From Burkholderiales bacterium (GTDB lineage: Bacteria > Pseudomonadota > Gammaproteobacteria > Burkholderiales > Burkholderiaceae), in contig CAHJWV010000178.1 of the NCBI GenBank assembly GCA_903643055.1, forward strand, positions 1 to 15,387: a stretch of DNA of 15,387 bases. The letters are read 5' to 3'. Positions 9,439 through 12,189 of the stretch are shown here, in pieces (position 1 is the first letter of the stretch; the number at the start of each line of letters is the position of its first letter). Below the pieces are notes generated by a model that saw nothing but the letters and a program-made list of their open reading frames with translations, was not told the DNA's origin and did not search any database. Both the position numbers and the translations under genes were made by a program.

Positions 9439-9722
9439 AGAGATGCACAGATGCGGGAGGCGCCATCGAGCCATTCATCAACTTGGCGAGCCACGCCCCT
9501 CAATTCACCTCGATGCCAAGTGCCGTTCGGCACCACAGCCAGATCGTTCAAATGCTGACGGTATGGCAGGCTTCGTGCGGCAATTGGTAACCACGCCCCT
9601 ACGCGTCACAACACACTGATTCGACATGCCTAGACAAGTTGCTCGCCCCAACCTGGCCTCCTTTTGCCCCATTAGGGCTTATCCGCTCCCTGTCATTGTG
9701 CAGAACGAAATCTCAGGCTCGT

Positions 9723-9750
9723 ACCTTTAAATTCTTAAAACATTAAAGGT
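9723..9750. promoter_or_regulatory. AT-rich inverted repeat upstream of the peptidase gene
   Basis: ACCTTTAA (9723-9730) and TTAAAGGT (9743-9750) are perfect 8-base inverted arms around a 12-base AT-rich spacer, in an otherwise GC-rich region. They lie 120 bases upstream of the peptidase ATG. The geometry fits an operator for a dimeric regulator overlapping a promoter. Neither the regulator nor exact -35/-10 elements can be named. Confidence 0.4.
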
Positions 9751-9870
9751 CGTAACGGTGAACTGAGAAGTCTTGTGGTGGCCCGAAGCGCCCCATAGAC
9801 TGGCTTCGCCGCTCTAACCCGCCGGGCTCAGGGCAGGCTTCAACCTCTATCACTAACTGGAGCTTCATCA

Positions 9871-10902
9871 ATGCTTGGTTTCAAACAATGGGCGTCTGTT
9901 GTTGTCTTAACAGCTACTGCGGGTGTGCACGCCGCATCTCGCGATCTGATCGACGTCCAGCTCACCGCCCCCACGCCAGTCATCAAGGGTGATGTCGACG
10001 TGGTGGTCGGTGTCACGGTGACCAATCGCAATAACCATCCCGTCACGCTGCTGAAATCTCAACTGCCCGAGAGCGCGGACGCAGCCCAGTTCAAGATCAC
10101 GCGCAATGATGAACGCGTCACCTATCAAGGCCGCGTCATCAAGCGGAACACGCCGCAGGCCAAAGAGTATGTGAAGCTTGAGCCGGGTGCATCGCTTCAC
10201 TACGACGTGGAGCTGACCACCAACTACGACCTGTCGCAAAACGGCCGTTACGCGATCGAGTACCTCAGCCGCGGTCGCCATGGCGATGCAGCGACGCTGA
10301 ACTCGCAGCCGCTGTACCTGTGGCTGGAAGAGCGCACGCCGCAGCCCCAAATGTCAATCGCCTTCGAACCGCAGGCCACGGTTGCCGCCGCGGGCACGCT
10401 GAGCTTCGCCAGCTGCTCTTCATCGCAGAAAACAGCCATCCGCACCGCGGTCACCAACGCCACAAACTACGCTGCAGCTGCGGCCGACTATCTCAGCGAC
10501 AGCGCGACGCTGACACAGCGCTACAAGAAGTGGTTTGGTACGCCCCTGTCAGGCTGGAACACCGCGTACTCTCATTTCGTTGCGGTTCAGAGTGCATTCC
10601 AGAGCAAGGCCATCACGGTGGACTGCGGCTGCAGTGACGACGTCTACGCCTATGTCTATCCAACACGTCCTTATCGCATCTACGTTTGCAACGATTTCTG
10701 GAATGCGCCGGCCACCGGCAAAGACTCGAAAGCCGGCACATTGGTCCATGAGATGACGCATTTCAACGTCGTCGCCGGAACCGATGACTGGGCCTATAGT
10801 CAATCCGGAGCGGCTTCGCTTGCCATCTCCAACCCGACCCGGGCCTTGGACAATGCGGACAGCCACGAATACTTTGCAGAGAACGCGCCTTTCCTGCCTT
10901 GA
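9871..10902 (+). CDS. Secreted M35 aspzincin metallopeptidase, peptidyl-Lys (Lys-N) type
   Basis: This 343-aa preproprotein is a zinc endopeptidase. Parts: signal peptide ~1-22; Ig-like beta propeptide ~24-155; linker; catalytic domain ~176-343, whose ~168 aa match the length of mature Grifola frondosa peptidyl-Lys peptidase. Zinc site and catalysis: HEMTH (His293, Glu294, His297), then GTDDWAY with Asp306 as third ligand and Tyr309. Four cysteines (182, 252, 254, 273) follow the family disulfide pattern. The segment NADSHEYFAEN carries Asp330 and Glu333 at the offsets from the first zinc histidine of the acidic residues that bind P1' lysine in the fungal enzyme. The M35 family includes the Aeromonas AsaP1 exotoxin, made with a propeptide. 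A GGAG ribosome site lies eight bases before ATG. The next gene overlaps its stop and encodes a propeptide-like protein. Confidence 0.93.
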   Translation: MLGFKQWASVVVLTATAGVHAASRDLIDVQLTAPTPVIKGDVDVVVGVTVTNRNNHPVTLLKSQLPESADAAQFKITRNDERVTYQGRVIKRNTPQAKEYVKLEPGASLHYDVELTTNYDLSQNGRYAIEYLSRGRHGDAATLNSQPLYLWLEERTPQPQMSIAFEPQATVAAAGTLSFASCSSSQKTAIRTAVTNATNYAAAAADYLSDSATLTQRYKKWFGTPLSGWNTAYSHFVAVQSAFQSKAITVDCGCSDDVYAYVYPTRPYRIYVCNDFWNAPATGKDSKAGTLVHEMTHFNVVAGTDDWAYSQSGAASLAISNPTRALDNADSHEYFAENAPFLP

Positions 10903-11519
10903 TGCCCGTTGACTCATCAACGTTCTTGAAAATCGGCCCGCGCACGGTTCAATCGGTGCGCGGGCCGTGGTCACGTCGGCAGCAAGGCTGCGGGCGCACA
11001 TGGCGTTATCTCGCGCTGCTCGCCTTTGCAGGAGTTGGCTTGCCCGCCATGGCCGCTGAAACCCAGCCTTTGCGCTGCACGCTGAAAGCGCCCGCGCGCG
11101 TGCCTCTCGGTGAGCCGGTGCTGCTGGAGTTTTCGCTGCACAACGACAGCAACGCGGCCCTTCAGGTGCTTACCTGGAAGACACCGTTTGAAGGCTGGTT
11201 CGGAAGCTACGTTCGTGTGCTGCGCGATGGCATTGAGCTGACCTACCAAGGCCCGAGCGCCAAACGCAGCAAGCCGGCGCGCAATGCTTACATTGCAATC
11301 GCTGCTCACCAATCCAGCCGCGCGCAGGTCGATCTGAGCCTGCCATTCGAACTCAATCACATCGGGCGCTACCGCGTCGAGCCGCAGCTGATCCTGTTCG
11401 ATGTGACCACCGCTGCGCCGAAGTCGCTGCCGCGCTCCCCCGATCAACTGAGTTCGCATCCGCTGGAATGCAATCCGGTCGACATCGAGATCATCAGCGC
11501 ACCAGCATCGAAGCCTTGA
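10902..11519 (+). CDS. Secreted protein homologous to the M35 peptidase propeptide domain
   Basis: This 205-aa product has a likely signal peptide (RTWRYLALLAFAGVGLPAMA, cleaved near 51), then a single beta-rich domain. It aligns without gaps to the upstream peptidase's propeptide at a constant offset of 30: L31/L61, AP33-34/AP63-64, G40/G70, TYQG 84-87/114-117, KR 91-92/121-122, P95/P125, Y100/Y130, GRY 125-127/155-157. By eye there are about 25 identities in 100 positions. No catalytic domain follows. Cys59 and Cys190, on the first and last predicted strands, may form a disulfide absent from the propeptide. The ATG overlaps the peptidase stop (TGATG); a later GTG at 10956 is an alternative start with a shorter leader. 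Likely roles are inhibitor or folding helper of the peptidase; a decayed duplicate is the main alternative. Confidence 0.78.
   Translation: MPVDSSTFLKIGPRTVQSVRGPWSRRQQGCGRTWRYLALLAFAGVGLPAMAAETQPLRCTLKAPARVPLGEPVLLEFSLHNDSNAALQVLTWKTPFEGWFGSYVRVLRDGIELTYQGPSAKRSKPARNAYIAIAAHQSSRAQVDLSLPFELNHIGRYRVEPQLILFDVTTAAPKSLPRSPDQLSSHPLECNPVDIEIISAPASKP
10934..10967. repeat. Perfect 12-bp GC-rich hairpin just after the peptidase gene
   Basis: CGGCCCGCGCAC (10934-10945) and GTGCGCGGGCCG (10956-10967) pair perfectly around a 10-base loop, 31 bases after the peptidase stop and inside the 5' part of the next reading frame. No T-run follows on the plus strand; ATTTTC follows on the minus strand. It could attenuate or stabilise the transcript between the two genes. 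It also makes the start of the second gene less certain. Confidence 0.6.
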
Positions 11520-11632
11520 ACGTCCCAACGGGCCTGCGAAGCCTTATCGCCAGACAGGTCCGGTTCCGCCAAGCCCGACTCATTCAGGTCTGACCGGCAC
11601 CCGCGCGGGCTGTGCGCTGATGCCATCCCTCC

Positions 11633-12085
11633 TCAATGCGAGGCACTCGGTCCTTCGACCGCCACCTGAACCGTGACATCGCCCGCCTTTTCAAAGCGCA
11701 GCTTCAGCGGGAACTTGTCGCCGGTTTTCAACGGCGCCTTCAGGCCGATCAGCATGATGTGAAAACCACCCGGCGCCAGCTTCGTCGTGGCACCGCCCGG
11801 CACGGGGACGCCATCGACCTGCCGCATCCGCATCACATCGCCCTCGAGCTTCATCGTGTGCAGTTCGACAGAGGCGGACACCTCGCTGCTGGCGCTGACC
11901 AAGCGATCGTCGGCGCCCTTGTTGTCGACCGACAAAAACGCACCGCCGGCGGTCTGGCCGGTCACGGTCGAACGTGAATAGGGATGCCCGATTTCCAGTG
12001 CACCGAAGGTGAACGAATGGGCTTGCGCCGCGACGGACGATGCGGCGATGGTGACAGCGGTCAACCAGGTGGAGATCAGTTTCAT
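11633..12085 (-). CDS. Periplasmic copper chaperone, PCuAC family
   Basis: The protein is 150 aa with a signal peptide (~1-22, cleaved after SVAAQAHA-type sequence near QAHS). The copper motif H-X10-M-X21-H-X-M is exact: His76, Met87, His109, Met111, with extra Met78 and Met85. PCuAC proteins bind Cu(I) in the periplasm and hand it to cytochrome oxidase assembly factors such as Sco. The ATG at 12083-12085 has AGGGAA seven bases upstream. The frame continues upstream through the CT tract to 12379, but that extension is a low-complexity and shadow reading without a signal peptide. It is the last gene of a leftward cassette after the TonB-dependent receptor and DUF2946-like genes. Confidence 0.93.
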   Translation of the reverse strand: MKLISTWLTAVTIAASSVAAQAHSFTFGALEIGHPYSRSTVTGQTAGGAFLSVDNKGADDRLVSASSEVSASVELHTMKLEGDVMRMRQVDGVPVPGGATTKLAPGGFHIMLIGLKAPLKTGDKFPLKLRFEKAGDVTVQVAVEGPSASH

Positions 12086-12129: not shown

Positions 12130-12189
12130 CAGAGAGAGAGAGAGAGACAGAGAGAAAGAGAAAGAGAAAGAGAAAGAGAAAGAGAAAGA
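12130..12189. repeat. Simple-sequence tract (AG)n and (AAAGAG)5.8
   Basis: AG repeats run 12131-12147, a C interrupts at 12148, AGAGAG follows, then five full AAAGAG hexamers plus five bases (12155-12189). On the mRNA (minus) strand this is an almost pure C/U tract. It lies between the receptor stop (12204) and the ribosome site of the copper-chaperone gene. It is prone to slippage and, as a C-containing G-free RNA, could act as a Rho-loading or ribosomal S1-binding site. Confidence 0.9.

Follow-up and report, generated by a model that had tools for sequence, protein, structure and literature searches.

The gene at positions 10902-11519 of the window, the 15,387-nucleotide Burkholderiales stretch that was analyzed here, encodes a free homologue of an M35 propeptide. 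We think it probable that the product is a dedicated, trans-acting inhibitor of the M35 protease encoded by the preceding gene and serves in self-protection. We infer this role of a putative inhibitor from homology, predicted fold, a conserved loop, a leader and the gene neighborhood; the reading of the locus as a protease/inhibitor system, given in the initial annotation, is supported at that level. The features of the two genes are as follows.

9871-10902, plus strand: M35 (aspzincin) metallopeptidase pro-enzyme of 343 aa with an N-terminal leader (matches to PF14521 and AsaP1)
9934-10350, plus strand: propeptide domain of the protease, about residues 22-160 (approximate limits, from alignment to the N-terminal part of AsaP1 and to the free protein)
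10123-10155, plus strand: propeptide loop Y-x-G-x-x-x-K-R-x-x-P, residues 85-95 (read from the sequence and the alignment)
10495-10881, plus strand: catalytic domain, residues 209-337 (Pfam limits, PF14521)
10747-10761, plus strand: HEMTH (HExxH) of the protease (from the sequence)
10900-10904, plus strand: TGATG, in which the protease TGA and the ATG of the free gene have one base in common (from the sequence)
10902-11519, plus strand: free propeptide-like protein of 205 aa, proposed inhibitor of the adjoining protease (ATG at 10902, stop ending at 11519)
11001-11057, plus strand: leader peptide of the free protein, hydrophobic, roughly residues 34-52 (by eye), with AMA at its end and no lipobox
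11067-11510, plus strand: Ig-like propeptide-fold domain, model residues 56-203 (AlphaFold2 and VIA-align)
11244-11276, plus strand: loop Y-x-G-x-x-x-K-R-x-x-P of the free protein, residues 115-125 (conservation assessed over 35 propeptides and 37 copies that are free or at a C-end)

The protease matched PF14521 in Pfam (E=2.9e-41) and, over its full length, the AsaP1 pro-enzyme entries of the PDB (2x3a and 2x3c at E=4e-76, 2x3b at E=1e-75); its HEMTH is the zinc-binding motif. The overlap of the second gene with the protease stop, noted in the initial annotation, is the single common base of TGATG. The relatives P0002, P0004 and P0005 begin with MP... at the same place and so support ATG 10902 as the start. 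The version of the free protein in the protein database (P0001) has 156 aa and a later start, which would cost it the hydrophobic leader. In agreement with the initial annotation, we found no catalytic domain in 10902-11519, and no family in Pfam and NCBIfam matched the protein at E values up to 10. Since it is not joined to a catalytic domain, the product is a free homologue rather than a propeptide. An annotation split of one longer protease was ruled out by the different reading frame and the separate leader, as well as by relatives that carry a full protease and a free gene. A scan of 9600-11700 for sigma-70-like promoters returned no site at all, which says little on co-transcription. Further along the window, a 6-base repeat AGAGAA (9.5 copies, 12133-12189) lies just upstream of a minus-strand gene, whose product we take to resemble a PCu(A)C-type copper chaperone.

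The free protein and the propeptide of the neighboring protease are diverged homologues. BLASTP aligned the two proteins at 43.5 bits (E=1e-9) with 28% identity over 125 aa. The homology had been described as gap-free at an offset of 30 residues; this is accurate for the 64 residues that pair protease 67-130 with free protein 97-160, whereas upstream of this stretch the alignment requires gaps. Among PDB sequences, AsaP1 was the sole match of the free protein below E=0.001, with 4.7e-4 for the single sequence and 4e-9 for an eight-sequence profile, and the match was confined to AsaP1 residues 16-127, the propeptide part. The predicted fold (AlphaFold2, VIA-align) is the same as that of the AsaP1 propeptide, so the proposed similarity of the two domains is significant by sequence, by profile and in predicted fold. 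In AsaP1, the M35 protease of Aeromonas salmonicida, this domain is part of the pro-enzyme, whereas in the window it is a separate protein and the protease retains its own copy. The title of Bogdanovic et al. 2016, as cited in PMC9229710, calls the AsaP1 propeptide an intramolecular inhibitor.

A first protein search returned eight proteins, including the window's own. The profile search, in which the best 7994 candidates were scored, gave at least 72 proteins at E<=1, of which P0072 was not significant; 69 of the 72 have no more than 201 aa, and 62 and 22 of them entered alignments A3 and A2, respectively. The source names included Piscinibacter, Ideonella, Albitalea and Burkholderiales, as well as one Thermoanaerobaculia and one Aeromonas diversa. 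The Aeromonas diversa protein (P0070) is a free propeptide-like protein of 137 aa without a catalytic domain; its database name 'protease' is probably a misannotation. By eye, P0035 and P0071 contain two tandem copies of the domain; the start of P0035 is lipobox-like, and P0071 looks eukaryotic, which is a guess.

A genome scan yielded eight loci, six of which (L001-L006) have a free copy beside an M35 frame, broken in L005; L007 is one of the C-end copies described below, and L008 is a protease's own propeptide. We then counted free copies in six genome surveys, in which the genomes with a match include those matched by propeptides of M35 genes: the family of G002 (15 of 399 genomes with a match; 11 of 11 free copies adjoining M35), the class of G006 (12 of 369; 7 of 7), the phylum of G002 (10 of 398; 2 of 3), the order of G755 (15 of 109; 6 of 7), the order of G661 (25 of 48; 21 of 21), and the phylum of G008, a genome of Saprospiraceae in Bacteroidota (3 of 198; 0 of 3). 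The surveys are not independent random samples, because some genomes occur in more than one of them, the orders of G755 and G661 were picked as already holding a pair, and for large genomes only the best candidates were scored. With each free copy counted once, 47 of 52 assessable copies have an M35 gene as neighbor, in 46 cases on the same strand. Thus both the occurrence of stand-alone domains beside M35 genes and a neighborhood conserved in relatives, on which the initial annotation had made its proposal depend, were found. The free copy is downstream in 36 of the 47 cases, upstream in 10 and convergent on the other strand in one (L040), and the open frames of the pairs either overlap or are separated by no more than 264 bases.

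The count of 52 leaves out L059, L078 and L079, which are at contig ends, L022, whose apparent free copy is another M35 gene interrupted by a run of N, and places in the orders of G755 and G661 that resemble single M35 frames (for example G1141, G1146, G1155, G1187 and G1188). The broken locus L005, from a MAG, was counted as adjacent in the survey of the G002 family and dropped from the tree. Outside the surveys, the copies of the window, L001, L003, L004, L037 and L038 are adjacent too. In Aeromonas caviae (L037) the free copy directly follows an AsaP1-like M35 gene, and in Pseudoalteromonas xiamenensis (L038) a 'hypothetical protein' follows an 'M35 family metallo-endopeptidase'. Taken over the whole set, general synteny was rejected as the source of adjacency, since it is mainly close kin (L011/L013/L014/L015, L019-L021 and L025/L026/L030) that have flanking genes in common. 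Judging by coordinates only, we took the three largest flank clusters to be out-of-frame shadows of the pair.

At four loci a second propeptide-like copy forms the C-end of the M35 frame itself. These single frames of protease and second copy are:

L007: 3784-6342
L029: 4445-7150
L032: 3924-6239
L033: 4198-6561

In each, the protease ends in a hydrophobic tail that contains Gly; another hydrophobic stretch, bearing a lipobox-like Cys, leads into the second copy. The frames read like a neighboring lipoprotein gene set in frame with the protease. They are possibly two-product polyproteins, giving a secreted protease and an anchored partner, but the second part could equally well begin at an internal start. 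An NCBIfam search for GlyGly-CTERM in these frames gave one sub-threshold match (P0076), so the name describes a likeness only. By eye, several of the M35 proteins of L024, L025, L026 and L030 end in a similar short hydrophobic tail with acidic residues after it (...LLLFDD, ...LLLDD), perhaps a sorting signal.

Five of the 52 free copies have no M35 neighbor (L041, L051, L046, L047 and L048). The genome of L051 has an M35 gene elsewhere. The other four, in three genomes, have no M35 in their genome by PF14521: a search of the assemblies G1369, G1427 and G1110 found none, and the same search found at least one in each of five other genomes. L041, in G1110, is a 268-aa protein with the domain and a weak PQQ-like part. 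The remaining three are orphan lipoprotein-like copies in two Bacteroidota genomes (L046:4826-5362, L047:5017-5535 and L048:4646-5140) that have the same loop. The five copies without an M35 neighbor count against an inhibitor, and so do the 14 loci, L022 aside, at which an M35 gene has no free copy. The orphans either guard against foreign M35 enzymes or have another partner. They would suit a family with a different role altogether, such as an envelope protein that happens to accompany M35 genes and has no action on the protease, and both the loop-bearing Bacteroidota copies and the 268-aa protein speak for it. We regard such a role as improbable for the window's protein, given the 47 of 52 copies beside M35 and the second copies in frame with M35 at four loci, and the orphans could also guard against the M35 enzymes of other species.

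Many free copies outside Burkholderiales look like lipoproteins from their sequences. Lipoboxes were scored by a PROSITE-type pattern with loose start codons. The pattern was present in 2 of 15 Burkholderiales-type copies, 22 of 27 from the G661 order (three of these 27 being contig-end pieces), 7 of 10 from the G755 order, 1 of 6 from other Pseudomonadota and 3 of 3 from Bacteroidota. The window's free protein does not match it and is of the plain secreted type.

The main rival to the inhibitor is a folding helper, in which the free copy would act in the periplasm to help the protease fold or be exported. Propeptides often are intramolecular chaperones, and membrane-anchored lipase foldases offer a comparison. 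The coupling of the genes and the membrane anchoring in many lineages would suit a folding helper too, and genomic data alone do not decide between the two. We nevertheless judge a helper rather unlikely on two counts. Of 40 M35 frames at the scanned loci, 37 retain their own propeptide, and the exceptions are one split gene, one broken frame and one frame at a contig end; the free copy is therefore not required as a replacement. Furthermore, M35-only loci (L018-L021) exist in the same family of genomes, and folding there needs no free copy. Altogether, no free copy was detected at E<=5 in the fetched stretches of 14 M35-only loci (15 with L022); this set includes L023, which is cut off by the end of its contig, as well as L027, L031 and L036, whose genomes have a pair elsewhere. 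Against the inhibitor reading, a secreted M35 enzyme that already carries a propeptide may not need a further antidote.

Conservation was compared between two sets, both of which retain near-copies: 35 propeptides, and 37 copies that are free or at a C-end. The loop Y-x-G-x-x-x-K-R-x-x-P is near-invariant and common to both sets. In the numbering of the free protein, N81, G117 and R122 are present in all 37 free copies and all 35 propeptides, K121 in 36 of 37 and 32 of 35, Y115 in 33 of 37 and 35 of 35, and P125 in 35 of 37 and 29 of 35, respectively. In the AlphaFold2 model of the free protein the loop sits between strands, and it is therefore more likely a contact site than part of the fold core. 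The free copies have extra cysteines, C59 (26 of 37) and C190 (25 of 37), where propeptides mostly have V and S; a C59-C190 disulphide in the free copies is a guess. These two cysteines and a WNTPFEG stretch set the free clade apart from the neighboring propeptides, and together with the faster change of the free copies they suggest that the mode of binding may differ, a point against the inhibitor reading.

The loop also bears on a timer or decoy, that is, a sacrificial substrate or competitor that would delay activation of the protease without protecting the cell. M35 relatives cleave before lysine according to PMC11985622, and a conserved K-R loop would suit a peptidase with such relatives, lysine specificity being putative for the window's enzyme. 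In our judgement the near-invariant loop and the two cysteines of the Burkholderiales copies point to a stable binder instead, and a timer or decoy is highly unlikely.

The tree was built from 72 of 76 rows, leaving out the free copies of L022 and L005 and the partial propeptides of L032 and L033. Free copies and propeptides mostly form separate clades. The window's free copy is in a starred free clade of 26 rows (99/94) made up of Burkholderiales-type copies, P0068 and P0070, apart from the propeptide clade of 19 rows (100/96) to which the window's protease belongs. On the tree the free label needs five changes, three of them forced by starred branches, so more than one origin of free copies is possible. 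The free copy of L024 groups with propeptides, including that of its own neighbor. Free copies diverge faster than the proteases, with amino-acid identities of 54% and 82%, respectively, between L012 and L016. In seven pairs dN/dS is below 1, at 0.43-0.70 for the free gene and 0.27-0.67 for the protease, these being rough Nei-Gojobori values with approximate starts. In view of the 26-copy free clade and these ratios we rejected a degraded duplicate or pseudogene.

Propeptide domains are also found as free proteins among the PepSY and I9 inhibitors, which have other folds and belong with M4 and S8 peptidases. IPI/BsuPI of Bacillus subtilis (PF12690, 3isy) differs in being intracellular and in acting on subtilisins rather than metallopeptidases, and PF12690 matched none of 63 family members at E values up to 10. 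The nearest parallel is Spi, described in passages of PMC2873492 as a propeptide analogue encoded beside SpeB of Streptococcus pyogenes, co-transcribed with it and inhibiting it specifically. Like Spi, the free protein is a propeptide homologue encoded next to a protease, and its gene adjoins the protease in relatives as well. In contrast to the window's M35 partner (PF14521), SpeB is a cysteine protease (C10) that differs in family and fold; its inhibition by Spi is experimental, whereas that in the M35 pair is inferred, and lipoprotein, upstream and in-frame forms are found in the M35 system. Producer protection is also proposed, in the same passages (PMC2873492), for staphostatins beside staphopains and Bfi beside Bacteroides C10 proteases; these are likewise small proteins encoded next to secreted proteases, but lipocalin-like and unrelated to a propeptide. 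Our search of open-licence papers found no description of an M35 propeptide-like inhibitor. The propeptide-analogue kind of inhibitor is known for C10 proteases. The best reading of the pair is a putative M35 counterpart of SpeB-Spi.

A trans-acting inhibitor is the best explanation because the free copy is conserved, exported, linked to the protease, additional to the cis propeptide and often probably anchored. In the mechanism we propose, the protease would shed its own propeptide after export and become active. Through the TGATG overlap the free copy would be produced along with the protease. In the periplasm or on the cell surface this copy would bind the mature enzyme in the manner of the propeptide, and so keep prematurely active or returning protease from cutting the envelope proteins of the producer. 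In many other lineages the free protein has a lipobox and would stay tethered to the membrane after release of the protease, in keeping with protection of the producer.

M35 enzymes serve as proteomics tools (PMC11985622) and are virulence factors (PMC12924839). The literature we searched contained no description of how producers tolerate their own M35 enzymes. As a tentative generalization, the free copies may constitute a widespread family of propeptide-derived M35 immunity proteins, secreted or lipid-anchored, linked to proteases in Pseudomonadota and occurring in Bacteroidota as orphans that protect non-producers. If so, the family would include the copy behind the AsaP1-like gene of Aeromonas caviae, and the orphans would be immunity proteins that outlive their toxins and act against the M35 enzymes of neighbors. 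A genetically encoded inhibitor would provide specific inhibitors for the M35 class, explain a set of 'hypothetical proteins', and show once more, now for an unrelated protease family, how a propeptide can become a free antidote.
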